IMG/VR virus record: IMGVR_UViG_3300006071_000089
Span: 1-25,000 of that record
Direction: 5' to 3' (one strand)
DNA: 25,000 nucleotides
Source: a virus
The notes under the pieces were generated by a model. That model saw nothing but the letters and a program-made list of their open reading frames with translations. It was not told where the DNA came from and searched no databases. Positions 2-24,850 of the stretch are shown here, piece by piece (positions within the stretch are counted from its first letter, which is position 1; each line of letters opens with the position of its first letter). The translations under genes and the position numbers were made by a program.

Positions 2-1642
2 ACGCTGGGCGGCTATCAGTCTTTTCACTGGACACCGCCCAACGCTTCAAACCCGTTGGCATTTGTCTGTAAATCGTGGTCAGAGCAAGATACGCCGGGC
101 GGGATTAGGACGCTTAATTGCACGTTTGAGCAAAGATTCGTTGATTCCTATACATCCGCTGTTGATGTGCCGGACGGCTCGACATTTTCGCCTGCGACAG
201 CGACGAGCTATTCGATTAGCTACACGCAAATTCAGTCTTTAACCGATTTGCAATTGCAGACGGCCAGATCTAATTTAGGCCTAACAACTGTTGCTTGGTC
301 TGGTAATTATTCAGACTTGAATGGCACTCCTTCAATACCGACCGTTCCTGCACTTGTTTCCGCATTTACAAACGACGCCGGATACTTAACACGCATCACC
401 GCTGCCCAAGTTAAAAGTGCGCTTGGAATTTCTACGCTAACTGGTTCTAACACTGGCGATGAAACAAGCGCAACTATTATTTCAAAGCTCGGATTTACGC
501 CGTACAACGCGTCGAATCCAAACGGGTATTTAACAGGGATTACGTCTGCTCAGGTCGTTACAGCGCTTGGATTTACACCAACAACGCTTGCTGCCGTTGC
601 AGGTGTGGGCTATGCGACGGGAGGAGGATTTGCGAGTGGAACCAATACAGGCGACGAGACCGCAGCGACGATTGTTGCTAAGCTGAGTTACACACCAGAA
701 AGCACTTCAAAAAAGGGGGTAGCCAACGGTTACGCACCTTTGGGGAGCGACGGAAAAGTACCTTCGTCTTATCTGCCAGCCACGAGCAGTAGCGCAAGCG
801 CTACATCGACGGATGTCGTGCCAGAGGGAACAACCAATTTGTACTTTACGCAGGCGCGGGCGAGAGCCGCTATCAGCGTCGCTGGATCATTATCGTATTC
901 AGCAGGGGTAATTAGCTATACCGCACCAAATGTACTTTCTGCGCTTACAAATGATGTCGGGTACCTCACTACCATCACGTCGACACAAGTTAAGTCGGCT
1001 CTTGGAATCTCCACTCTTTCAGGATCGAATACGGGCGATGAAACATCATCGACAATTCTATCTAAGCTAGGCATTACAACACTATCCGGCTCAAATACCG
1101 GAGACGAAACGTCAGCAACAATAATATCAAAACTCGGCTTCACACCCTACAGTTCGGCCAACCCGAGCGGGTACATCACCAGTTCATCGCTCACCCCTTA
1201 CGCGTTACTTTCAGGTGCGGCGTTTACAGGTGCAGTCAGTGCAACGTCATTTAGCGGCCCACTCACCGGCGCACACGATGGCCCAGTGGGCGCAACAACG
1301 CCAAGCTCGGGTAAGTTTCTCCACGCTTATTCGCCAACAATCACGCTCACCGATGCGGCTTCAATCGCCTGGAACGTGGCAACAGGTCAAGTTGCAAAAG
1401 TCACGCTTGGCGGATCTCGAACAATGGCGGCACCAACGAATTTGCAAGACGGCGCCTGCTATACGCTGAATATTATTCAAGATACTACAGGCTCGCGCAC
1501 ACTGTCTTGGAATAGCGTCTTTGCTTTCACAGGCGGCACCGCACCCACACTATCGACTGCTGCAAATGCCGTAGATAAGATTTCGTTTCAGTACGACGGT
1601 ACAAAATTGCGTGAACTTGGCCGCTCGCTGGGAACAGCATGA
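2..1642 (+). CDS. gpM-like minor tail protein fused to a tail fibre (5' end missing)
   Basis: The reading frame is open to the left edge, so the gene begins outside the window; the TTG at 56 is not the true start. The first visible residues, LGGYQSFHWTPP, then VCKSWSE and FEQRF, match the C-terminal end of the lambda gpM family (minor tail protein at the tail tip; lambda has GGWKSFLWTPP, then CAKWSS and FEQV). In lambda the protein ends there. Here it continues for about 490 residues as a fibre: short repeats with the core NTGDET, neck-like segments such as LTDLQLQTARSNLGL, LGFTP motifs, and a beta-rich C-terminal domain ending in GRSLGTA. I infer that one polypeptide both builds the tail tip and carries a side fibre or adhesin. 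The stop overlaps the next start (ATGA at 1639). Confidence is high for the fibre and good for the gpM part, which is only partly visible. Confidence 0.82.
   Translation, partial: TLGGYQSFHWTPPNASNPLAFVCKSWSEQDTPGGIRTLNCTFEQRFVDSYTSAVDVPDGSTFSPATATSYSISYTQIQSLTDLQLQTARSNLGLTTVAWSGNYSDLNGTPSIPTVPALVSAFTNDAGYLTRITAAQVKSALGISTLTGSNTGDETSATIISKLGFTPYNASNPNGYLTGITSAQVVTALGFTPTTLAAVAGVGYATGGGFASGTNTGDETAATIVAKLSYTPESTSKKGVANGYAPLGSDGKVPSSYLPATSSSASATSTDVVPEGTTNLYFTQARARAAISVAGSLSYSAGVISYTAPNVLSALTNDVGYLTTITSTQVKSALGISTLSGSNTGDETSSTILSKLGITTLSGSNTGDETSATIISKLGFTPYSSANPSGYITSSSLTPYALLSGAAFTGAVSATSFSGPLTGAHDGPVGATTPSSGKFLHAYSPTITLTDAASIAWNVATGQVAKVTLGGSRTMAAPTNLQDGACYTLNIIQDTTGSRTLSWNSVFAFTGGTAPTLSTAANAVDKISFQYDGTKLRELGRSLGTA
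443..1111 (+). repeat. four-copy NTGDET fibre repeat
   Basis: Four copies of a protein motif close to GSNTGDET(S/A)xTI(I/L/V)xKL start near 443, 638, 1022 and 1088. Copies 3 and 4 are adjacent, 66 bp apart. Copies 1 and 3 are each preceded by a related segment (TNDAGYL / TNDVGYL, then QVKSALGIST). The DNA of the copies has diverged at third positions, so the protein repeat is old and selected rather than a recent duplication. This is typical of trimeric phage fibre shafts. Confidence 0.85.
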
Positions 1643-3930
1643 TCATCATTCCAGCCAACAGTCCGTCGACTGCTTACACTCTGCAAAAATCACTACGGTT
1701 TCGTGCCAGTGCGTCTGCTAACTTAACCCGTACATTTACAACACCGACATCTTCGACGGTTTTTACTTGGTCAGGTTGGGTTAAGAGAGGGTTGTTAGGG
1801 ACAACACAGTATTTGTTCGGGGCAAGTACAACTACTAATTTTGGGTTTAACTCAAGCAACCAGTTGGTATTGACCCTTAGCGGAACAACAGCGGCAACCA
1901 CGAGCGGGGCGTGGACCGACCCTTCCGGTTGGTATCATGTGGTGTATGTACAAAACGGATCAGCACAAACTATATATGTAAACAGTATTTCAAAAGCAAC
2001 AGGCACAACAGCTAATACAGTGTTCAATACTGCTATTGCCCATCAAACAGCATCAGCAAATTCCGCTAACTATTTTGACGGTTACTTAGCTGAAGTCAAC
2101 TTCATTGACGGTCAAGCCCTAACCCCAACATCCTTTGGTTCATTCAACGCCACCACCGGGGTGTGGCAACCTGCTAAGTACTCAGGTACTTACGGTACTA
2201 ACGGGTTTTATTTACCGTTTAGCAATACGGCTAGTACAACGACACTTGGCTATGACTTGTCCGGTAACAGTAACAACTGGACTACCAACAACATTGGACT
2301 AGCGACGGGCAGTGCGTACCTAGGTGTGTCTTACGACGCTATGACGGATGTACCGACTTTGACGAGTGCTGCGGCGGGTAATTACGCTGTGTTGAATCCC
2401 CTTGATACAGTAGGCACTACCGTAATTTCAGCGGCAAACTCAACCATTACCGGCAATCAAGGTATTTTTTGGCAAACCACTAGAGCCACAATAGCACTCC
2501 CGTCTAGCGGCAAGTTTTATTGGGAGGCTGGTCTAGCTTCCTCGCAAGGTGATTTGGCTGTTGGTATTGCCACGTTTACTGCGGCGTTAGTGAGCAATAT
2601 AGGGACAAATATGGTTTCCTATATTGACACCGGTACTTTGATTAACAACGGGACAAGCACAGGTGTTGCCTCTTTTGCCATTGGCGATCAGATAGGCATT
2701 GCTGTTGATGTCGGTGCTAACCTCATTTATTTCTACAAGAACAACGTGCTGGTAAATACTGGCGGTACTTCAATTGCAATCACTGCACCGTTTGCGCCAT
2801 TTATCAGTTTGAATCAAAGCGGTTGTAGTGGTTACATAAACTTTGGGCAAAGACCTTTTCAATACACACCCCCGACAGGCTTTGTAGCCCTCAACGCTTA
2901 TAACCTACCAACAGGAACAATCCTGCAAGGCAATAAGTACATGGATGCTACGCTCTACACCGGTAACAATGCTACTGGTCGTTTAATTACAAATGCTTCA
3001 GGATTTCAGCCTGACTTGGTTTGGATTAAAGATAGAACAACTGCATATAACAATAACTTGTACGACTCTAACCGAGGCGCACCTTATGAGTTATCAAGCA
3101 ATTTAACATCCGCTGAATCATCAGGCGATTTAACTGCTTTTAACACCAGCGGGTTTACGATTAACCAAACATCAAGCTACAACATAAACGTAACAGGCGA
3201 TGCTTATGTAGCTTGGCAATGGCAAGCAGGAAAAGGTACAACATCAAGCAACACCAACGGATCAATCACATCAATTGTGAGCGTAAACGCTACCGCTGGG
3301 TTTAGTGTTCAAACATGGACTGGTAATGGTGGTGGTACGGTAGGGCATGGTTTAGGTGTCGTTCCTAATTTTATTATTTGTAAATCTCGGAATACTACGT
3401 CTACTTTGTGGTGGACATACCATTCAAGCGCACCAGGACAATATTTTTATTTGAATTCAACATCAGGAGCAAATGCAGATGGAGGTTCAGTATTTGGAAA
3501 TAACTCCGTAGCTGTTGCGCCAACTTCTTCTGTATTTTCTGTTGGTAGCTCTAATGGCGCAAGTGGCTACACAATGGTTTCTTACACCTGGGCGGCTATT
3601 GCTGGATTTAGTTCTTTCGGTAGTTACACCGGCAATGGAAGTACATCTGGACCTTTTGTGTACACAGGGTTTCAGCCCCGTTATATATTGATTAAACGCA
3701 CTGATTCCACAAGTGATTGGTACGTTTGGGATACGGCTCGGAATACATACAATACTGGCGCAAGTTATCTGTTGACCGATTCAAGCAACGCTGAAGCAAC
3801 GTCCTCTACGGTTAACACACTGGCAAACGGATTCAACATCGTAAACGCATCTACGGTCAACGCTTCCGGCGGTACTTACATCTACGCTGCCTTTGCTTCT
3901 AATCCTTTCAAAAATTCTTTAGCTTTCTAG
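1639..3930 (+). CDS. LamG/SPRY-type tail adhesin, 763 aa
   Basis: Probable virion surface or receptor-binding protein. Residues about 20-175 look like a concanavalin/LamG jelly-roll (FTWSGWVKRG, WYHVVYVQNG, YFDGYLAEVNFIDGQ). Residues about 270-415 look like a SPRY-type beta-sandwich (FYWEAGL, IGIAVDVGANLIYFYKN, INFGQRPFQYTPP). From about 455 to the end there are three diverged copies of a module that opens with GFQPDLVWIK, VVPNFIICK or GFQPRYILIK, has Trp-rich strands, and closes in AW or YAAF. I recall such modules from phage and marine proteins annotated as DUF7483, but cannot confirm the family name here. There is no signal peptide. It is translationally coupled to the gpM-fibre gene and sits between M and L, where lambda has no gene. 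Receptor binding is inferred from domain type and position. Confidence 0.72.
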   Translation: MIIIPANSPSTAYTLQKSLRFRASASANLTRTFTTPTSSTVFTWSGWVKRGLLGTTQYLFGASTTTNFGFNSSNQLVLTLSGTTAATTSGAWTDPSGWYHVVYVQNGSAQTIYVNSISKATGTTANTVFNTAIAHQTASANSANYFDGYLAEVNFIDGQALTPTSFGSFNATTGVWQPAKYSGTYGTNGFYLPFSNTASTTTLGYDLSGNSNNWTTNNIGLATGSAYLGVSYDAMTDVPTLTSAAAGNYAVLNPLDTVGTTVISAANSTITGNQGIFWQTTRATIALPSSGKFYWEAGLASSQGDLAVGIATFTAALVSNIGTNMVSYIDTGTLINNGTSTGVASFAIGDQIGIAVDVGANLIYFYKNNVLVNTGGTSIAITAPFAPFISLNQSGCSGYINFGQRPFQYTPPTGFVALNAYNLPTGTILQGNKYMDATLYTGNNATGRLITNASGFQPDLVWIKDRTTAYNNNLYDSNRGAPYELSSNLTSAESSGDLTAFNTSGFTINQTSSYNINVTGDAYVAWQWQAGKGTTSSNTNGSITSIVSVNATAGFSVQTWTGNGGGTVGHGLGVVPNFIICKSRNTTSTLWWTYHSSAPGQYFYLNSTSGANADGGSVFGNNSVAVAPTSSVFSVGSSNGASGYTMVSYTWAAIAGFSSFGSYTGNGSTSGPFVYTGFQPRYILIKRTDSTSDWYVWDTARNTYNTGASYLLTDSSNAEATSSTVNTLANGFNIVNASTVNASGGTYIYAAFASNPFKNSLAF

Positions 3931-5921: not shown

Positions 5922-6582
5922 AACAGTCAAACTCTACGGACACCTCGGTAAAAAATTCGGGCGAGTTCATCGGCTGGATGTTAATGGCCCACTGGATTCT
6001 ATTCGTGCATTTGCGGCTTTGTATCCTGAATTTAAGAAATCATTGGTCGAGCATAGGCCTGGTTACAAAATCTTGATCGACGGGTTTGAGGCAAAGAGCA
6101 AGGACGAGTTGAAATTGCCCGGTAGTCGCACGATCAGCATCGTTCCCCTGCAATCTGGTGCCGGTAACGGCGTAACTACTATTTTGGCTGGCGTGGCATT
6201 AATTGCGGCTGCGTTTGTGACTGGCGGTGCTTCAATCGTTGCGACTGAGTCGTTTGAATCTATTGATGCCTTCCTAGCAGGTTCTGGCACGACAGGTTTA
6301 TCGCTCACCACCACCAGTATGGGCGCAATGGCTTTGACTTTTGGCGCAACTCTGATTTTGGGCGGTATATCCAAATTGCTATCTCAGCCCAGCAATGCGC
6401 CAAGCTATTCATTTAATGGACCAGTTAACACAACCAATCAAGGCAACAGTGTGCCGATCGTTTACGGTCGAGTAATGATAGGCTCACAGGTCATATCATC
6501 CGGCCTCTATTCTTACGATCTCGCAGTTGATTGGACGAATACGTCAACCTCTAACAGCTCGACGTTCAAAGGCCAGATATGA
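5914..6582 (+). CDS. I: tail assembly protein I
   Basis: This 222-residue protein lies between K and J, as in lambda. The first 80 residues look like a ubiquitin-type beta-grasp (VKLYGHLGKKFG, then FAALYPEFKKSLVEH). The middle, about residues 80-160, is Gly/Ala-rich and hydrophobic (ILAGVALIAAAFVTGGAS and LTFGATLILGGISKLL). The C-terminal part has the family signature FNGPVNTTNQGNSVPIVYG followed by a GS..ISSG stretch. In lambda gpI is required for tail assembly but is absent from the finished virion. The start overlaps K by 8 bp, and the stop overlaps J by 4 bp. Confidence 0.9.
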   Translation: MLKTVKLYGHLGKKFGRVHRLDVNGPLDSIRAFAALYPEFKKSLVEHRPGYKILIDGFEAKSKDELKLPGSRTISIVPLQSGAGNGVTTILAGVALIAAAFVTGGASIVATESFESIDAFLAGSGTTGLSLTTTSMGAMALTFGATLILGGISKLLSQPSNAPSYSFNGPVNTTNQGNSVPIVYGRVMIGSQVISSGLYSYDLAVDWTNTSTSNSSTFKGQI

Positions 6583-9500
6583 GCGAGATTATTGGCTACG
6601 GTGGTGGCGGCAAGGGTGGCAGCGGATCTGGCGGAAGCGGCGCAAGCGAGGCAAGTGATACGCTTCGTTCTTCGGAAATGGCATTTTTGCTCGACGCATT
6701 GTGCGAAGGTCCGATTAATGGTCTTGTAAACGGGGCTCAGTCTGTTTATCTTGACCAGACGCCATTGCAAAATGCCGACGGAAATTGGAATTTTGATAAC
6801 GCCACTTTTGCCTATTCGGTCGGTGATATTGCCGGAAATCAATTAGGTATTGGGTCTTTGTCGGGCGATTCTGGCAACATCGAATCGACTGTTTCGGTAG
6901 CGACAAAGGTATATCAGGCTACCCCAATCGTTAAAACTGTCACGGATGCCAACGTTGACTACATTCGAGTCACTGTTTATGTGCCGCAACTTACGCATAC
7001 CGATAGCAAAACAGGTGATATTAGTGGCTCGTCAGTTCACTACAAAATCGATCTAAATATCAATGGAGGTGGTTGGTACAAAATGGTGGATGACACCATA
7101 TCTGGCAAAACCACCAGCAAATACTCTCGCAGCTATTTAATACCTACGTCTGGCGTTGGCGGTGTAATCGATAACGTCAATTTGGACCCTGTTGCCCCAT
7201 CTGGATCTGGCGGGTCGGGTTCGGGCGGATCCGGTTCGGGTGATTCCGGCGGGGCATCAAATGGTGGTGATGGCGGAGACGGGTCTTCGGCCGGCACCGA
7301 TTCGTCAAGCAGTGATGCTGCTGCAGCGGCTAATGCTGCGGCTGAAGCGGCAGCGGCTGAAGCTGAGGCAGCGGCTGAGTCGGCATCCGAAGCCGAGGCT
7401 GCCGCATCTGAGTCTGCAGCTGCCGAGGCAGAAGCCGAAGCCGCCGCCGCTGAGGCAGCGGCCAATGCCGCAGCTGAGGCGGCTGCAAATGCTGATGCGG
7501 CTGCCGCCGAAGCCGCCGCCGCTGATGCGGCTGCCGCTGCCGATGCTGCCGCCGCCGCCGCGTCAAGCGATTCTCCCGACGGCGATGGCGATGGCGGAGG
7601 TGATGGCGGAGGTGATGGCGGTGTTTCGTCATCATCCGGTCCATGGCAAATTCGAGTTCGTCGAACATCCGGCGACAGCGGATCGTCCTATACCCAGAAT
7701 GATTTGTATTTTGAAAGTTACACGTCGATCATTTCTACAAAGGTGGAATATCGGCACACGGCCATCGCTGGCATTTCGATTGATGCTCGCCAGTTCTCTG
7801 CCATTCCAACTCGCGCCTACGAAATTTATGGGCTATCAATTGAGGTGCCCTCGAATTATGACCCAGCGTCGCGCAGCTACTCAGGCACATGGGACGGCAC
7901 GTTTAAGCTTGCATACTCAAATAATCCGGCTTGGTGTTTTTATGATTTGTTGACTAACACTCGTTATGGTGTTGGTGGCAACATTGACACCACAATGATT
8001 GATAAGTGGGCTTTGTACTCAATCGGTCAGTATTGCGACGAGTTAGTCGATGATGGCTTCGGAGGCACTGAGCCAAGATTTACCTGCAATCTGGTTATTC
8101 AAAAAGCAGATGATGCTTATCGAGTGCTGCAAAACTTCGCAAGCGTATTTAGAGCCATTATTTATTGGTCGGCTGGTGGCATTTCAGTATCTCAGGATGC
8201 GCCAGCTGATCCTGTGCAAATATTCGCTCCTGCCAATGTCATCGGCGGCGCATTCAAGTATCAAGGGACCAGTTTAAAGTCGCGGCACACCGTTGTTTTG
8301 GTGACATGGAACGATCCCGCAAATTACTACAAGCAAGCAATTGAGTACGTGCAAGACGATGCTGCCGTTGCGAAATATGGGATTATTCAAGCTGATGTTG
8401 TGGCGATGGGCTGTACTAGCCGAGGCCAAGCGCATCGATTTGGAAAATGGCTGTTGTATACCGAGCAAAACGAAACGGAAACGGTTAGTTTTAGAACCGG
8501 TATTGATGGATGCTACGTTTATCCCGGAGCAATCATACGCACGTCAGACCCGAATCGCGCAGGTGTGCGAATGGGTGGCAGACTGATTGATTACTCTACC
8601 GACCTAACCACCCTCACTTTAGATGCGGCCTATTCTCCAACCGCATCTAACCAAATGATTTATGTTGCGTATCCGGATGGCACGATTGGCAGCAGCTCTA
8701 TTCAGTCCGTAGCTGGATCTACCGTCACTTTGTCGGCGGCGCTTACGCAAACACCGGTGTCGAATGCTATCTACATGCTATCCGAAGCTGATCTTGAGCC
8801 CGAAACATGGCGAGTGGTTTCTGTTTCTGAAACTGCCGATGACACGATAGAAGTGTCAGCCATTCAGTACAACGCATCGAAGTACGATTACGTTGAAAGA
8901 AATATTGCATTGACGACAAATCCGACGAGCACTTTAACGGCTGTCCCGTCCGCGCCAAGCAACCTGTCTCTTGCTGTGTCCCGATACGTGATTGACATTG
9001 GGGTGGCCGGATTGCGTGCAACAATCTCATGGTCTGGATCCGCTAGTCGATACAACGTCAGTTACACCAAATCCGGTGGGCAAACTGTAAGTTTTGTCCA
9101 AAACGAGTTAAGTTTTGATATTGATAATTGCGCCGTTGGTGAAGTTTATTCCGTTTCAGTTCAAGCGGTTAGCGGCGTTGGCTTTACTTCAACGACCACT
9201 ACGTCATCGTTCACGATACCTGACCCCCTACAGATCTATCCATCGGCACCAACGAGTTTTGACGCAATACAAACACCCAATGGCGTGAAGTTAACCTGGA
9301 CGTCAGTAAATGACCCGATGCTCTACGATTATGAAATTCGATATGGTACAGATTGGGCAAATAGTACTTTTTTGGGATACTTCACCGGCAACACAACTCT
9401 CGTCAGCCCGCTAAAGGACGCTTCATACAATTTCATGATTGCGTCCAGAAATATCTTTTTTAATATTTCAAAGACGTGCAAGTTTTCAACGTTAAATATT

Positions 9501-10751
9501 TCACCGCCTACTGCGCCTAAACTTTCGGCAAGAATATCAAGCGGCGATTTTATTTTGTCGTGGACGGTTCCAACAAGCCTATTTGCTATTGATCATTATG
9601 TTGTTTATCACCGCCACAATGCGACGGTAGCGGCCACCAAAATTGGATCCATTTTTACAACACGTTATCAATCCAACGTAACTTGGTCTGGGACTGAGAG
9701 TTTTTCTGTGGCAGCGGTTGACGTGGCGGGCAATGTTGGATTTTATGCGCAAGTGTCTTTGACGATTACAGCGCCGACTGCGCCGACTGTTACGAGCAGT
9801 TGTGTTGATAACAATGTGCTTTTGTACTGGACGAGTTCAGAGCAAACATTGCCGATCGACACGTACAACATTTATAAAGGCGATACGTTTGCAACGGCAG
9901 AGCTAATAGGCACAAAGTCAGGTCTGTTTACTACTGTTTTTGAATCAAGCTCTGGAAATTACACATATTGGGTGGCGGGTGTTGATACGGCTGGTAATGT
10001 TGGGACACCGGGCGCAATCACCGTGTCGGTGGCGGCTCCAACCAATTACGTTTTACATAGTTCAACGTACAGCACCTTTAACGGCACATATAACCACTCA
10101 GTGCTAGACGAAGGCGCTGTGATGATGCCAGTCGACACTACGTCGACATGGGCAAGCCATTTCACCTCAAAAGGTTGGTCAACATTTCAAGATGCTATTA
10201 ACGCCGGTTTTGCTGATTATGCGCAACCGACTGTCTCGTCTGGCTATTACGAAGAAGTGTTTGATTTTGGTGCGGTTATTGGGACATCAAGCGCGACAAT
10301 CATACCGACGATCATTACGGTAGCTGGATCTCCGGCAGTAACCACCACTTTTCAAGCAAGTTTAGACGGGGTGACTTTTGGGGCAACGCAAACCAGCTCC
10401 GCGTACCTCACAAATTTCAGATACATCAAGGTTCGAGTGACCGTCACATCATCGGATAACCTTGGTCTGGTCTCAATGACGAGCTTGCAAGTTAAGCTCG
10501 ATCTTAAGTCGATTAGCGACTCAGGAACTGTTGCAGTTAACGCAACAGATGCGAACGGCACGACAGTATTATTTAATCAACCGTTTGTCGATGTGACTAG
10601 CATTAGTGTCACGCCAAAAGGGACTTCGGCATTAACAGCCATCTATGATTTTAATGGATCAGCTGCACCGACATCATTCAAAGTTTATCTATATAACGCT
10701 GCCGGAGTAAGGGTTTCCGGCACCGTTTCTTGGGCCGCCACAGGCTACTAA
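6579..10751 (+). CDS. J: tail tip hub / host specificity protein J with low-complexity insertion
   Basis: A 1390-residue protein of the lambda gpJ family, the central tail tip protein that meets the host receptor. The N-terminus has the Gly-rich start (YGGGGKGGSGSGG) and SDTLRSSEMAFLLDALCEGP. At about residues 195-370 the usual pair of strands (YSRSYLIP ... GPWQIRVRRTS) is interrupted by about 145 low-complexity residues. The hub continues with YEIYGLSIEVP, NPAWCFYDLLTNTRYG and a barrel region with PGAIIRTSDPNRAG. Four fibronectin-III-like domains start near residues 788, 888, 976 and 1065, each with an AP or PTAP linker and a W strand. The last 230 residues are a beta-rich tip domain, probably the receptor-contact part. 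It is 4 bp coupled to I. Confidence 0.95.
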   Translation: MSEIIGYGGGGKGGSGSGGSGASEASDTLRSSEMAFLLDALCEGPINGLVNGAQSVYLDQTPLQNADGNWNFDNATFAYSVGDIAGNQLGIGSLSGDSGNIESTVSVATKVYQATPIVKTVTDANVDYIRVTVYVPQLTHTDSKTGDISGSSVHYKIDLNINGGGWYKMVDDTISGKTTSKYSRSYLIPTSGVGGVIDNVNLDPVAPSGSGGSGSGGSGSGDSGGASNGGDGGDGSSAGTDSSSSDAAAAANAAAEAAAAEAEAAAESASEAEAAASESAAAEAEAEAAAAEAAANAAAEAAANADAAAAEAAAADAAAAADAAAAAASSDSPDGDGDGGGDGGGDGGVSSSSGPWQIRVRRTSGDSGSSYTQNDLYFESYTSIISTKVEYRHTAIAGISIDARQFSAIPTRAYEIYGLSIEVPSNYDPASRSYSGTWDGTFKLAYSNNPAWCFYDLLTNTRYGVGGNIDTTMIDKWALYSIGQYCDELVDDGFGGTEPRFTCNLVIQKADDAYRVLQNFASVFRAIIYWSAGGISVSQDAPADPVQIFAPANVIGGAFKYQGTSLKSRHTVVLVTWNDPANYYKQAIEYVQDDAAVAKYGIIQADVVAMGCTSRGQAHRFGKWLLYTEQNETETVSFRTGIDGCYVYPGAIIRTSDPNRAGVRMGGRLIDYSTDLTTLTLDAAYSPTASNQMIYVAYPDGTIGSSSIQSVAGSTVTLSAALTQTPVSNAIYMLSEADLEPETWRVVSVSETADDTIEVSAIQYNASKYDYVERNIALTTNPTSTLTAVPSAPSNLSLAVSRYVIDIGVAGLRATISWSGSASRYNVSYTKSGGQTVSFVQNELSFDIDNCAVGEVYSVSVQAVSGVGFTSTTTTSSFTIPDPLQIYPSAPTSFDAIQTPNGVKLTWTSVNDPMLYDYEIRYGTDWANSTFLGYFTGNTTLVSPLKDASYNFMIASRNIFFNISKTCKFSTLNISPPTAPKLSARISSGDFILSWTVPTSLFAIDHYVVYHRHNATVAATKIGSIFTTRYQSNVTWSGTESFSVAAVDVAGNVGFYAQVSLTITAPTAPTVTSSCVDNNVLLYWTSSEQTLPIDTYNIYKGDTFATAELIGTKSGLFTTVFESSSGNYTYWVAGVDTAGNVGTPGAITVSVAAPTNYVLHSSTYSTFNGTYNHSVLDEGAVMMPVDTTSTWASHFTSKGWSTFQDAINAGFADYAQPTVSSGYYEEVFDFGAVIGTSSATIIPTIITVAGSPAVTTTFQASLDGVTFGATQTSSAYLTNFRYIKVRVTVTSSDNLGLVSMTSLQVKLDLKSISDSGTVAVNATDANGTTVLFNQPFVDVTSISVTPKGTSALTAIYDFNGSAAPTSFKVYLYNAAGVRVSGTVSWAATGY
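7198..7635 (+). repeat. low-complexity tract inside gpJ
   Basis: This in-frame tract encodes first a Gly/Ser run (GSGGSGSGGSGSGDSG), then a helix-prone Ala/Glu/Asp/Ser run built from AAAEAEAA-type units, then a Gly/Asp run (DGDGDGGGDGGGDGG). The DNA is rich in GCN codons, and near 7592-7615 there are two and a half copies of a 12-bp unit, TGGCGGAGGTGA. The GCN bias opens long false frames on both strands. I infer a flexible, partly helical linker that may expand or shrink by slippage. Confidence 0.9.
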
Positions 10752-10762
10752 TCGAGGATTAA

Positions 10763-11653
10763 ATGACGAACACATCCGACTTTTCTAAGCCGGTGATTAC
10801 GGACGCCTATACGTCTGTATTGCCCGAAATCTCAGCAATCCACAACGACTTAGCATTAGGGCTGGATCCCGCTTACACGAGCCCGGCTAATGTTCCGACT
10901 AACGCCACACGCTGGAACAGTGTAAATAAATATTGGGAAAAATACGGTGGCACTACATGGACTGCGTTGTGCTCTTTGTATGCAATCACCGTGGCAGCTG
11001 CCGTCAAGTGGGCAAACGCCATTACGCTGTCTGTAACGGGTGACGCAACGGGAGCGGTAAGCATCGATGGCGGCAGCAATGCCACGATTGCTTTGACGCT
11101 GGCAACGGTCAATCAATCAGTAGGTACGTTCGGAGATCAATCAGACATTCCTGTAATTACCGTTAACGCAAAAGGCCAGGTTACGAATGTCGGCACAGTT
11201 AGCGTGTCTGCTGGACTTCCGGCTGGCGCAATAGCTACTTGGGCGGCCTCCGTAGCACCTACGGGCTATTTAGAGTGCAACGGCGCACTGTTATCTAGAA
11301 CAACTTACGCGTCACTTTTTGCGGCAATAGGCACCACGTTCGGCGTGGGTGATGGATCAACAACTTTTGGAATTCCTGACCTGCGTGGGTATTTTCCACG
11401 AGGCTGGGATCACGGACGAGGGGTCGATTCAGGGCGTGCTTTTGGTTCGTCGCAGTCCGACCTTTTTGCAAGCCACAACCATAACACTAGCCCGTACTTC
11501 AATGCGATTAACTTCTCAAGAGCAGCGTGGGATCCTACTGGCGTTGGCTTTATGACGAATGAGCTTGGCGGGACTTACGGCAACGACTCTTACACGGGCG
11601 GCGCAGAGACTCGACCCAAAAACATCGCTTTAATGTTCATCATCAAATACTGA
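10763..11653 (+). CDS. tail fibre with collar domain
   Basis: A 296-residue structural protein. Residues 1-150 are a fibre-like stem with a T/S-rich beta region (TLATVNQSVGTFGDQSDIP, then AKGQVTNVGTV). Residues about 155-235 are a phage tail collar domain: PAGAIATWAASVAPTGYLEC, LLSRTTYASLFAAIGTTFG and GIPDLRGYFPRGWD. The end is a typical tip with SHNHNTSP and the closing NIALMFIIKY. Proteins of this type form short or side fibres. It follows J by 11 bases and leads the second host-recognition cassette. Confidence 0.88.
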   Translation: MTNTSDFSKPVITDAYTSVLPEISAIHNDLALGLDPAYTSPANVPTNATRWNSVNKYWEKYGGTTWTALCSLYAITVAAAVKWANAITLSVTGDATGAVSIDGGSNATIALTLATVNQSVGTFGDQSDIPVITVNAKGQVTNVGTVSVSAGLPAGAIATWAASVAPTGYLECNGALLSRTTYASLFAAIGTTFGVGDGSTTFGIPDLRGYFPRGWDHGRGVDSGRAFGSSQSDLFASHNHNTSPYFNAINFSRAAWDPTGVGFMTNELGGTYGNDSYTGGAETRPKNIALMFIIKY

Positions 11654-11658
11654 AAATC

Positions 11659-12318
11659 ATGCAAATTTACAATTATGACGGCACGACCGGCGAGTATCTA
11701 TTTACCTCTTTGGCGGATTTGTCTCCCCTAGAAAAAGGAGTCTATTTGATTCCAGCCAATGCCACAACTTTAGCGCCGCCAACCGCGCAAGTTGGATATG
11801 CACGAGTTTTTGGCGGTTCGACTTGGGCTCAAATTCGGGATTTGCGAGGAACAAAGTATTGGCTTTCAGATGGATCAGAGAATATAATGTCCACGTTGGG
11901 CGCTCTGCCGTCCGGCGCAAGCGTAATTCCGCCAGATTTGCCACTTACAACGGTGCAAGCTGAGCAGTCGGCCATCATTACGGCGGCATGTGCCAAAGCA
12001 ATTACTTCCGGTTTTTCGTCGTCTGCTCTGGGATCGTTGCACACGTACCCAAGCAAAATCACAGATCAACAGAACATTTCAGCAAACGTCCTAGCAAGTT
12101 TGCTTCCCGGCATTGCGTCCACTTGGACGACCTTGCAAATTTGTCAAGATTCAGCGGGTGCGTGGGCTTACTTGCCGCATACGGCGGCGCAAATTCAACA
12201 GGTTGCGGTGGATATGAAGGCTTGGATCCAGTCGTGTATTGCTAAAAAAGCAACGCTCGAGGCTTCTATTGCGGCGGCAACGACTAACGATCAAGTTGAA
12301 GCTGTTTTATGGTCCTAA
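11659..12318 (+). CDS. tail fibre accessory protein, DUF4376-type
   Basis: The 219-residue protein begins with MQIYNYDGTTGEYL, a common opening for fibre assembly or accessory proteins downstream of a fibre gene. The middle has STWAQIRDLRGTKYW, which resembles the W..v.D.RGt.yw pattern of the class. Residues about 100-205 match the DUF4376 pattern: an Ala-rich helix, then TSGFSSSALGSLHTYPSKIT and DQQNISA, then a Trp-containing helix. I infer a chaperone or minor fibre component. The stop overlaps the oxygenase gene start by 10 bp. Confidence 0.75.
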   Translation: MQIYNYDGTTGEYLFTSLADLSPLEKGVYLIPANATTLAPPTAQVGYARVFGGSTWAQIRDLRGTKYWLSDGSENIMSTLGALPSGASVIPPDLPLTTVQAEQSAIITAACAKAITSGFSSSALGSLHTYPSKITDQQNISANVLASLLPGIASTWTTLQICQDSAGAWAYLPHTAAQIQQVAVDMKAWIQSCIAKKATLEASIAAATTNDQVEAVLWS

Positions 12319-13307
12319 ATCTGCCGCGCAGGATCCATTCGATCTTGCCTCATGAACTTGGGGTCAGAATTAGCAGGCAAGTCTTATTGAACGGTTTTAA
12401 GTATGGTCATCGGTCTACTTTGTCGATGGGATACGCGCATTGGAATCACGATTATGGCGGCGGATCGGTCGAAAACGGACTGGATATATCCGAATCATTG
12501 AGCCCGCTCATGGCTCAGGCGTGGTCGCACATTCAAAAGGATGTCGGCGCTGGCATGACGCTGTTGAGGTGCTATGCCAATGCGCACACGTTTGGAACAG
12601 AAGGCTATCCGCATACGGACTCAGAGAGAAACGGTGATTTAACCGTTGTCATTTATCTAAACCAGAATTGGCGGCGAGAGTGGGGCGGTGAGACAGTTAT
12701 TTACAACGGCGACGAGATTGTTCATGCGGAGTTGCCAAAATTCAATTCTGGGCTTTGTTTTGCCGGGAACGCGTTTCACGTTGCAAAGCCCGTTTCGAGG
12801 ATTTGTCCAGAGCTTCGGGTAACGCTCATGTTTAAGATGGCTCCTTTTGGGCTGGACCCGATTAGAGACGGCCTGCAGGTTTATTTGACAGAAAACGGCG
12901 CTCACAATGCGCCACACTCTCGTCGAAATTTGCGAGCTCATTTGCTTCATACATACGATCTTTTAAATTCTGTCGGCCAACGCTCGGAAGTTTGCTTAGC
13001 TGGTGGCTTGCACTCCGTCTGTGGCACCAATATTTATAGAAACGGAATTGTTGCGGATAAGCAGTCTGTAATTGATCGATTCGGCAAGTCGGGAGAGCTT
13101 GCAATGTTGTTTGCTGAGCTGGATAGACCCAAGGTGCTTGAGAAATATTTGAGCACTGGGCAATCCGATTTGGTTTTGACGGGACAATGCACTGAACAGG
13201 ATATGCGAGATCTTTGCGCGATTGAGGCGGCAAATCTTGAAGATCAGAAAGTATTGAATAGCAACTATCCAAAGCTTTTAGCGCTTTGGAATTCACTCAT
13301 CGAGTAA
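12309..13307 (+). CDS. 2OG-Fe(II) oxygenase fused to an HD-like (DUF6817-like) domain
   Basis: A 332-residue, two-domain protein. Residues 1-178 have the prolyl-hydroxylase-type double-stranded beta-helix: iron ligands H102 and D104 (PHTDSERNGDLTVVIYLN), the GG turn at 126-127, H157 in FAGNAFHVAKPV, and R170 for the 2-oxoglutarate carboxylate (ELRVTLMFKM). Residues about 195-330 contain HSRRNLRAHLLHTYDLL and CLAGGLHSVCGTNIY, the pattern I know from DUF6817, an all-helical family resembling HD hydrolases. Both active sites appear intact. In this position the oxygenase may hydroxylate a fibre or tail protein, or a small molecule; the substrate cannot be read from sequence. The start overlaps the upstream stop by 10 bp. 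Confidence 0.82.
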   Translation: MVLNLPRRIHSILPHELGVRISRQVLLNGFKYGHRSTLSMGYAHWNHDYGGGSVENGLDISESLSPLMAQAWSHIQKDVGAGMTLLRCYANAHTFGTEGYPHTDSERNGDLTVVIYLNQNWRREWGGETVIYNGDEIVHAELPKFNSGLCFAGNAFHVAKPVSRICPELRVTLMFKMAPFGLDPIRDGLQVYLTENGAHNAPHSRRNLRAHLLHTYDLLNSVGQRSEVCLAGGLHSVCGTNIYRNGIVADKQSVIDRFGKSGELAMLFAELDRPKVLEKYLSTGQSDLVLTGQCTEQDMRDLCAIEAANLEDQKVLNSNYPKLLALWNSLIE

Positions 13308-21599: not shown

Positions 21600-21977
21600 A
21601 TGAAAAAGCTAATTTTATTGGCAGTTTTAACGCTGTCTGCGTGCACGACCGCACAACAACAAACCGCAACATCCAGCGCGGCTCAGGCTCAAAAACTGCT
21701 GGCTGCGGCCTGTCCACAAATCAATGCGGCGATTGCTCAATTGTCTGCGCTTCAATTGCCAGATCAAGTCCAGGCTGATCTTAATGCGGCCAATCCTATT
21801 GTTCAGTCCGCATGCTCTGTGAGCGGTCAAGTGGATGCGACCAGCGTTAAAGCGCTTGGCATTACCGCGATCCCAGTCATCATTTCGGCAATCCAAGCTT
21901 CAAGTATGAGCGACACGGCAAAACAAGACATTACGTTGGGTCTGGATGCTGTTTCAGTTGGGCTGGCTTTGCTATGA
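21600..21977 (+). CDS. phage lipoprotein 2, 125 aa
   Basis: The preferred start is the ATG at 21600, preceded by a GAGGG ribosome site at about 21591-21595; it gives a clean lipoprotein signal, MKKLILLAVLTLSAC. A longer frame from 21519 would bury that signal. The mature part is Gln/Ala-rich, helical and low in charge, with two further cysteines (AAACPQINAAIAQL and VQSACSVSG). The stop overlaps the phospholipase start by 4 bp (ATGA). Similar lipoproteins occur in phage lysis regions; function unknown. Confidence 0.7.
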   Translation: MKKLILLAVLTLSACTTAQQQTATSSAAQAQKLLAAACPQINAAIAQLSALQLPDQVQADLNAANPIVQSACSVSGQVDATSVKALGITAIPVIISAIQASSMSDTAKQDITLGLDAVSVGLALL

Positions 21978-22762
21978 AACAGGTGCGCCTAGCCTTGTCG
22001 GGGTCGGGATTTCTCGCCCCAATTCATGCAGGCGCGGTCTGCTCTCTTATGGATAACGGCGTTGAGATTGTCGAGCTATCCGGATCGAGCGGCGGATCCA
22101 TCATTGCCGCATTGGTTGCGATCGGCATGGATGCCAAAGCAATCAAAGACTTGGCTATGTCTGATATTCCTAAAGGGATTATCAGTTTTCAGCCGCTAGC
22201 ATTGCTCAAGAAAGCGTACAACTCGGGCGAGATTTTGCATAAATGGCTTCAAGACGTAATCGGCGGTCATACGTTTGCCAGTGCAAAAGTGCCCGTTACG
22301 GTAATGGCGACCGACATCGAGGCCGGAAAGCCGTATGTCTTTAACCAAAGCCTGACCCCAGACGTGCAAATTGCTGACGCTTGCCGAGCCTCTGCGAGCG
22401 TGCCGTTTGTCTGGCAGCCAGCAATCGTGAATGGCCGCGCACTGATCGATGGCGGGACCTGCAATAACATCCCTGTCGATCAATTGATTGACGACAGCAC
22501 GCCTCGAGTCGGCATTCAAGTAAAAGATGGTTCCGGATCTGGCAAAATCGACACAGTATTTCAATTCGCTGGGCAGGTTTTAAGCACCATGCTCGATGCG
22601 AATGAGGGAAACATTGACGTCTGGGCTCAGCGCACTGGCGCAAAAATTGTCGAAGTCAGTGCGGATCCCTACGGTTTCTTAAATCCAAACCTGACCACGG
22701 ATGAGAAAACCGATCTGTTTAGTCGCGGTTATTTTTCGGTGACGACGAAACTTTTAGCTTAA
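21974..22762 (+). CDS. patatin-like phospholipase, 262 aa
   Basis: A Ser-Asp lipid hydrolase of the patatin/RssA type. It begins with the Gly-rich oxyanion stretch (LALSGSGFLAPIHAGAV), has the GxSxG nucleophile at S39 (ELSGSSGGSIIAAL), and the Asp of the dyad at D158 (ALIDGGTCNNIPVD). Between them are VTVMATDIEAGKPYVFNQ and ADACRASASVPFVWQP, typical of the family. There is no signal peptide. It lies coupled to lipoprotein 2 at the end of the late unit. A role in lysis, membrane change or lysogenic conversion is possible. Its last 44 bases overlap the end of the opposite-strand HTH gene. Confidence 0.88.
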   Translation: MKQVRLALSGSGFLAPIHAGAVCSLMDNGVEIVELSGSSGGSIIAALVAIGMDAKAIKDLAMSDIPKGIISFQPLALLKKAYNSGEILHKWLQDVIGGHTFASAKVPVTVMATDIEAGKPYVFNQSLTPDVQIADACRASASVPFVWQPAIVNGRALIDGGTCNNIPVDQLIDDSTPRVGIQVKDGSGSGKIDTVFQFAGQVLSTMLDANEGNIDVWAQRTGAKIVEVSADPYGFLNPNLTTDEKTDLFSRGYFSVTTKLLA

Positions 22763-23869: not shown

Positions 23870-24850
23870 TTAATGTCTGATTCTGGCCGCAATCTGAGAA
23901 GCGCTCGGGTTGTAATACGTCATCGCTTGGGCTGGATTGGACCAGCCGAACATTTTGCACATGTCTAGCACATCCATACGCGGCGCAAGCCAAGTCGCAG
24001 CCGTGTGTCGGCTATCGTGAAACGTAAAACCCTCTAGCCCGGCTCGCGCTCGAGCACGTCTAAAGAGTGCGTCCAGCGTTTCTTTTTTGAGCGCAAAAAC
24101 GGATGTCGAATCAAACCCCCGCATTTTCGCAATGAGCCTTGCAGCCTTCTTGGTGATCGGCACGTCCCTTGGTTTTGTCTTGGTAATCGGCAAAATCACA
24201 TAGTCTGGCCGGACGCAAGCCCAATTCAATCCTGTCAATTCCCCCGCCCGCATCCCCGTTCTAAGCGCCAGCAAAAAACATACAGCCACGCTCTGAGTAA
24301 TAGAGCGAACCGGTCCACCGTACTGCAGAGCCCTAAGCATTTTTCGGATCTGGCTCGACGTGATAACCGTCGTTCGATGCTCTGGTGACTTCGGCTTGCG
24401 CACGTCGCGCATCGGGTTTTCTGCAATCCAGCGCCATTCTCGTCTGGCTACCTCAAAGACGCCACCTAATAATGAACACTCGCGAATCACGGTGCCTGGA
24501 CTCGTGGCCGCCAGCCGAGCGTCACGCCACTTGCCCAGCTCGTCTGGTGTAAAGTTACCGAGCAATCGACTGGCACTTAGATTTTCGTCGCGGATAAACG
24601 CTTTGATCCTGACTTGTTCCCATTTGTTACCGCGCTTAGTCGGGGAAATTTCTAGGGCATAGCGTTCGAGCGCGGCCTTGAGCGTGTACTTGGTGCCAAT
24701 CGGTTTCTTGTTCTCGGTGCGTAATTCTGTTTCTCGCGCAGCTCCCCACGATTCGGCCTCTCGTTTGGTGCGGAACACCTGAGAATCGCGCACTCCTTTG
24801 ACGTAGACCTGTGCTCGGTAGCCTGTCTTGGTCTTGGTAACGGATGACAT
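23870..24850 (-). CDS. int: phage tyrosine integrase, 326 aa
   Basis: A tyrosine recombinase that inserts and excises the prophage. The N-terminal part (about residues 1-60) is an arm-binding-like domain with VYVKGVRDSQVFRTKREAES, and residues about 60-155 are a SAM-like core-binding domain. The catalytic domain has R201 (ALRTGMRAGELTGL), K224 or K226 (PITKTKPRDVP), H278 and R281 (FHDSRHTAATWL), W303 in place of the usual second His (MFGWSNP), and the nucleophile Tyr, most likely Y312 by spacing (MTYYNPS). The gene reads away from the attachment site into the prophage. No ribosome site is visible before the ATG. Confidence 0.93.
   Translation of the reverse strand: MSSVTKTKTGYRAQVYVKGVRDSQVFRTKREAESWGAARETELRTENKKPIGTKYTLKAALERYALEISPTKRGNKWEQVRIKAFIRDENLSASRLLGNFTPDELGKWRDARLAATSPGTVIRECSLLGGVFEVARREWRWIAENPMRDVRKPKSPEHRTTVITSSQIRKMLRALQYGGPVRSITQSVAVCFLLALRTGMRAGELTGLNWACVRPDYVILPITKTKPRDVPITKKAARLIAKMRGFDSTSVFALKKETLDALFRRARARAGLEGFTFHDSRHTAATWLAPRMDVLDMCKMFGWSNPAQAMTYYNPSASQIAARIRH

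Follow-up and report, generated by a model that had tools for sequence, protein, structure and literature searches.

What does a phage do with a 2OG-Fe(II) oxygenase joined in one chain to a DUF6817 domain, encoded among its tail-fibre genes, and on what would such a protein act? The window analysed here, that is, the whole stretch of 25,000 bases taken from an IMG/VR virus record, comes from a freshwater phage and has a lambda-like tail module with small genes after it. A tyrosine-integrase-like gene, recognised by reading its translation, lies at 23870-24850 on the minus strand. No near relative of the window was found among 50,697 phage records; its J-like protein is closest to those of Burkholderia phages.

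The fused gene and its neighbours

The genes with which the analysis is concerned are as follows.

6579..10751, + strand: lambda J-like tail tip protein (phrog_31, 1e-252)
10763..11653, + strand: collar-type tail fibre (PF07484, 5.5e-24)
11659..12318, + strand: upstream neighbour, tail fibre assembly protein (DUF4376; PF14301, 9.4e-14; phrog_1807/1348)
12309..13307, + strand: fused gene, 2OG-Fe(II) oxygenase plus DUF6817, 332 aa (open frame; Pfam and PHROG matches; AF2 model with mean pLDDT 89.7)

An earlier note on this DNA had placed the fused gene among fibre genes, and this is borne out by the lambda-like module around it, with its J-like protein, collar fibre and DUF4376 fibre-assembly protein. 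The gene has an ATG start, and its first 10 bases overlap the end of the fibre-assembly gene, which fits its translation within that operon; the gap to the next gene is 6 bases. A chance ORF or a pseudogene is ruled out by the invariance of both of its sites in 76 non-redundant pairs, described below. A collagen-like substrate was also considered and set aside, since reading the translations of the neighbouring genes by eye showed no repeats of the collagen type.

Some other features of the window are worth recording. Upstream of the tail-tip genes, Laminin_G_3, SPRY and DUF7483 domains occur together in one protein (1639-3930, + strand), which is probably a further adhesin-like fibre. The J-like gene contains, at about 7133-7465, a long low-complexity stretch rich in Gly/Ser and then in Ala/Glu/Ser, and its G+C is locally raised (0.558 in 7001-8000). 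A patatin-like phospholipase gene is found at 21974-22762 on the + strand (PF01734, 1.3e-30).

The two halves and their sites

Both domains score above their Pfam cut-offs, as expected from the earlier note, which had read the protein as an oxygenase fused to a DUF6817-like domain. The features of the N-terminal half are listed first; here and below, counts refer to 76 non-redundant oxygenase-DUF6817 pairs, with gaps set aside.

12309..12848, + strand: oxygenase domain, residues 1-180, a PHD2/PPHD-like double-stranded beta helix (best Foldseek/VIA match 4j25)
12612..12620, + strand: H102-x-D104, iron ligands (each 76/76)
12777..12779, + strand: H157, third iron ligand (75/75)
12816..12818, + strand: R170, presumed 2-oxoglutarate carboxylate-binding residue (73/73; role by family knowledge)

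The Pfam family 2OG-FeII_Oxy_3 (PF13640) matches residues 97-164 with an E-value of 6e-10 and 40.4 bits (cut-off 27). The predicted structure has the double-stranded beta-helix fold of the Fe(II)/2OG oxygenases, and its best solved match is the P. putida prolyl hydroxylase PPHD (4j25; Z 18.4, rmsd 2.7, 162 aligned, by Foldseek/VIA). PHD2, Trichoplax PHD and Tpa1 are also matched, with the small-molecule enzymes PolD and SnoN ranking lower. A profile of the subfamily has OGFOD1 as its first match (5.7e-6) and PolD as its second, and the substrate cannot be read from the fold alone. The HxD...H facial triad is present, together with an Arg of the PHD/P4H type, R170, which we take to bind the 2-oxoglutarate carboxylate. 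By fold and by its full set of iron and 2-oxoglutarate ligands, the N-terminal half is thus a 2OG-Fe(II) oxygenase of the PHD/P4H type, and a predicted hydroxylase. The earlier note had made its reading depend on an oxygenase fold in the predicted structure and on metal ligands retained in relatives, and both are found. With the PHD/PPHD-type protein hydroxylases (P. putida PPHD 4j25/4iw3, PHD2, OGFOD1/Tpa1) the phage protein shares the fold, the triad and the 2-oxoglutarate Arg, but its identity to them is only ~15%, it is fused to an HD-fold domain, and it is phage-borne.

Two annotation searches bear on this half. The best PHROG match of the gene is phrog_274, which carries the name 'DNA endonuclease V'. 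Because the match spans the 2OG fold, and the cyanophage proteins so named have the HxD...H...R of 2OG oxygenases, this name was not adopted; in PHROG 274 and in cyanophage records (e.g. L009:3774-4962) it looks like a misannotation. The sole PADLOC match was to the generic CRISPR-associated model '2OG', which hit the oxygenase half at 3.6e-9; none of its specific anti-phage defence models matched the fused protein.

The features of the C-terminal half are these.

12870..13304, + strand: DUF6817 domain, residues 188-332, predicted HD fold (PF20680, E 9.8e-11; AF2 model of the domain alone; RelA/SpoT/Mesh1, Z 10-11.2)
12915..12917, + strand: H203, where the RKSG motif of RSH proteins has its Lys (76/76; profile alignment with RSH HD domains)
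12939..12941, + strand: H211, corresponding to the first metal His of HD-fold proteins (76/76; by alignment)
13011..13016, + strand: H235-S236, at the place of the HD dyad, with Ser for Asp (H 76/76, S 74/76)
13233..13235, + strand: N309, probably standing where the HD fold has its last metal Asp (Asn in 75/75 paired copies; Asp in actinobacterial copies)

The Pfam match (PF20680) covers residues 193-273, with 42.1 bits against a curated cut-off of 25.2. Modelled alone by AF2, the domain has a pLDDT of 94.6 and a pTM of 0.90. Proteins of the HD superfamily (Rel, Mesh1 and small alarmone hydrolases) head its fold matches, which also include PhnZ and TmpB at Z about 8, and a DUF6817 profile matches the HD protein Lmo0812 (8.7e-7). 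The Foldseek E-values are weak (best 0.03), and it is because the sequence profile, the Foldseek ranking and the VIA Z scores agree that we assign the C-terminal half, from its model and profile, to an HD fold of the RelA/SpoT type.

All the residues named in the earlier note (H102, D104, H157, R170 and the HS at 235-236) are at the positions it gave. Its description of this half as HD-like stands for the fold (Z up to 11.2) and fails for the dyad, where the Asp is replaced by Ser. In the profile alignment, the two metal His of the RSH HD domains correspond to H211 and H235, the dyad Asp to S236 and the Lys of RKSG to H203. This small alignment took in one wrong-frame row (L168), so that its overall probability (21%) should not be taken as a measure; the part that can be read is the N-terminal motif. 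N309 was set at the last metal Asp by eye, from KLGDVLAHM in the actinobacterial copies against KLADRLHNM in RSH proteins. Aligned in this way to HD templates, H203, H211, H235 and N309 would lie close together and form one pocket.

The His-Asp dyad of the HD superfamily is absent, the paired copies having HS in 74 of 76 and HA in 2, and some cellular copies HG, HN or HA. Of the RSH hydrolase set H...HD...ED...D, both His are present and the Asp/Glu positions are substituted, the ED pair being lost and the last Asp being Asn. The set of the HD diiron oxygenases MIOX, PhnZ and TmpB (H...HD...H...H...D) is likewise absent, as the dyad is without its Asp and H235 is the last His of the chain. Since these ligands are missing, the DUF6817 half is neither a normal HD phosphohydrolase or ppGpp hydrolase nor a PhnZ-like diiron oxygenase. 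It shares with the RSH/SAH/Mesh1 hydrolases the fold and the first and second metal His, and differs from them in having Ser for the HD Asp, no ED, Asn for the last Asp, and an additional invariant His, H203, where they have Lys. The invariance of H203, H211, H235 and N309 indicates that this reworked HD pocket is maintained by selection and has not decayed.

Pairing of the halves and gene context

A scan through the oxygenase half classified 77 viral loci: the oxygenase is fused to DUF6817 in 58, adjacent to it in 8, without it in 6, and cut off in 5. From the other side, viral contigs scanned with the DUF6817 half have the oxygenase fused or near in 39 of 45 loci; of the other 6, one lies at a contig edge and five are copies of the same phage. 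Both sets of counts include near-copies, and the search patterns were derived from paired members; they therefore describe this subfamily, not all phage oxygenases. Within the subfamily the pairing appears near-obligate (66/77 viral loci through the oxygenase half). The fusion label changes only 3 times on the tree, so most fusions trace to few events; in L048, whose position on a long branch is unsure, the fusion has the reverse order. The distance correlation between the halves is 0.81, a value reached in 0 of 2000 permutations and to which shared phage history contributes.

The two domains also occur as separate, overlapping genes. Such pairs are found on plasmids of the Burkholderiales Polaromonas, Paraburkholderia and Caballeronia, in Massilia, and in the cyanophages S-RIM50 and ACG-2014g. 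An HNH endonuclease gene lies between them at L043:7076-7564, a place taken by a small ORF in L046 and L047. In cells DUF6817 is rare (5-7 genomes per sample of about 300-400), and genome searches found this oxygenase within 1.5 kb of it at 2 of 22 loci. Without the oxygenase, it adjoins very large NRPS-type genes in three contigs (L014, L015 and L016, from Streptomyces and Spongiactinospora; near 7965-8564), and these NRPS-linked copies have HG for HS and Asp for Asn. That cellular DUF6817 is mostly without the oxygenase, and in some cases in NRPS clusters, hints at a small-molecule or carrier-bound substrate.

In the window's own clade (L076-L087 and L021), the identifiable neighbours are mostly virion or tail-fibre genes, across several unrelated phage types. 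These include tail-fibre-rich phages (L078, L081, L083, L084, L086), a second group (L076, L079, L080, L082), L077, which has an internal virion protein, and L085, whose phrog_358 proteins have no assigned role; the exception is L021, which has a cNMP-binding neighbour. An all-against-all phmmer comparison within this clade, looking for a substrate gene common to the neighbourhoods, found neighbours shared within phage types and none shared between them, a weak match between L085 and L021 (6e-4) being set aside. With no flanking protein common to the phage types, no single virion substrate is marked.

Elsewhere, the plasmid relatives are near a PilV pilus-adhesin operon and the cyanophage relatives near tail-fibre genes, while in other groups the module is flanked by terminase and a large gene (the L089 group), follows the portal gene (the L043 group), or adjoins clamp-loader genes (L115, L022) or primase (L027, L034). 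The fibre setting is thus really repeated in the window's clade and is not general across clades. We also note that in T4-like phages the fused gene sits between the clamp-loader genes and a QueC-like gene (L115:4737-5606, L095:2848-3717), and that the contigs on which it adjoins the primase gene (L027, L034-L036) are phage contigs of up to 354 kb.

What the protein may act on

The explanation that we favour, with a probability of about 35%, is a two-site phage enzyme acting on one target, which in this lineage is most likely a late-made fibre or other virion protein. The oxygenase half would add a hydroxyl to the target, using O2 and 2-oxoglutarate, and the DUF6817 half would bind the target or its hydroxylated form, or complete the change, both halves serving the same target. 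The trait affected may be adhesion or assembly. The choice of target comes from gene context: because fibre and virion genes mostly surround the gene in this lineage, a virion protein is a possible first choice here. In favour of this explanation are the protein prolyl hydroxylases as nearest folds, the HD fold, the recurrent pairing, the agreeing trees and the fibre or virion context in the gene's own clade; against it are the other clades, with the gene beside terminase, portal, clamp-loader, QueC-like or primase genes, and the mostly unpaired cellular DUF6817. Hydroxylation of a virion protein, as the earlier note proposed, therefore gains from the clade's own context, from PilV on plasmids and from the cyanophage tail fibres, and loses by the contexts found elsewhere and by the want of a neighbour common to the clade's phage types. 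We think it unlikely that DUF6817 is a new catalytic type on an HD scaffold, whose three-His/Asn site would finish a two-step modification of a virion protein begun by the hydroxylase.

A somewhat doubtful alternative is a tandem enzyme for small molecules, in which a metabolite is hydroxylated by the oxygenase and the product is then converted by the HD-fold half. This division of labour is established for phosphonates in PhnY/PhnZ and TmpA/TmpB, which also pair a 2OG hydroxylase with an HD-fold partner (PMC8177086), and the presence of PhnZ and TmpB among the fold matches, the widely varying contexts of the module and the oxygenase-free DUF6817 in NRPS clusters agree with it. The HD oxygenases, however, hold two irons through H...HD...H...H...D, whereas the phage protein, which is also a single chain and phage-borne, is without these diiron ligands, having Ser for the bridging Asp and no His after 235; in addition, its oxygenase half is nearest to protein hydroxylases. 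Those hydroxylases raise a different prospect, to which we give a low probability, that a host protein is modified, for instance of the translation machinery, with gene position reflecting expression time only. The enzymes nearest in solved fold (PPHD, Tpa1 and OGFOD1) have as substrate EF-Tu or the ribosomal protein Rps23, the latter being that of OGFOD1, and PPHD was solved with EF-Tu, as its structure entry title states. That the position differs between phage clades, and that the module is also on plasmids, would suit a host target, but fold similarity does not transfer substrate, in its own clade the gene mostly has virion genes around it, and a gene expressed late comes late for takeover.

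It is also improbable, in our view, that the oxygenase is the sole enzyme and DUF6817 a catalytically dead HD fold kept for substrate recognition, dimerisation or nucleotide sensing. Loss of the HD Asp, the ED pair and the last Asp of the RSH hydrolases would fit such a role, and an inactive HD domain is retained in RelA (PMC8177086); yet three His and one Asn are invariant in the paired copies, which goes beyond the needs of scaffolding, and DUF6817 occurs alone in cells.

Part of this picture is known already. Tandem 2OG/HD enzymes are known, and EGLN-type phage 2OG oxygenases are known as a class (PMC12774648, PMC3037559): EGLN3-like members occur in many phages (Phold, PMC12774648), and cyanophages carry 2OG-Fe(II) oxygenases (PMC3037559, PMC9602691). 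They belong to the same broad superfamily as the phage fusion, and the available parts of these three papers do not mention a DUF6817 partner. No paper naming DUF6817 was found in the literature searched. What is new, judged from sequence, is a fused pair whose predicted HD fold is without the HD dyad, and which was not found in the 50,697 annotated phage records at the sensitivity of tblastn. Its recurrence in many uncultured phages, with invariant site residues, marks it as a real and undescribed, if still predicted, phage enzyme.

These results connect a large set of phage 2OG oxygenases, until now unexplained, with a defined partner and a defined invariant pocket, and so bring their function within reach of experiment. 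The protein to work with is small, and its two domains hold a predicted iron site and a reworked HD pocket respectively. Should the target prove to be a fibre, these phages would hydroxylate their own adhesins; and if DUF6817 is catalytic, the HD scaffold would have gained a chemistry that does without its defining Asp.
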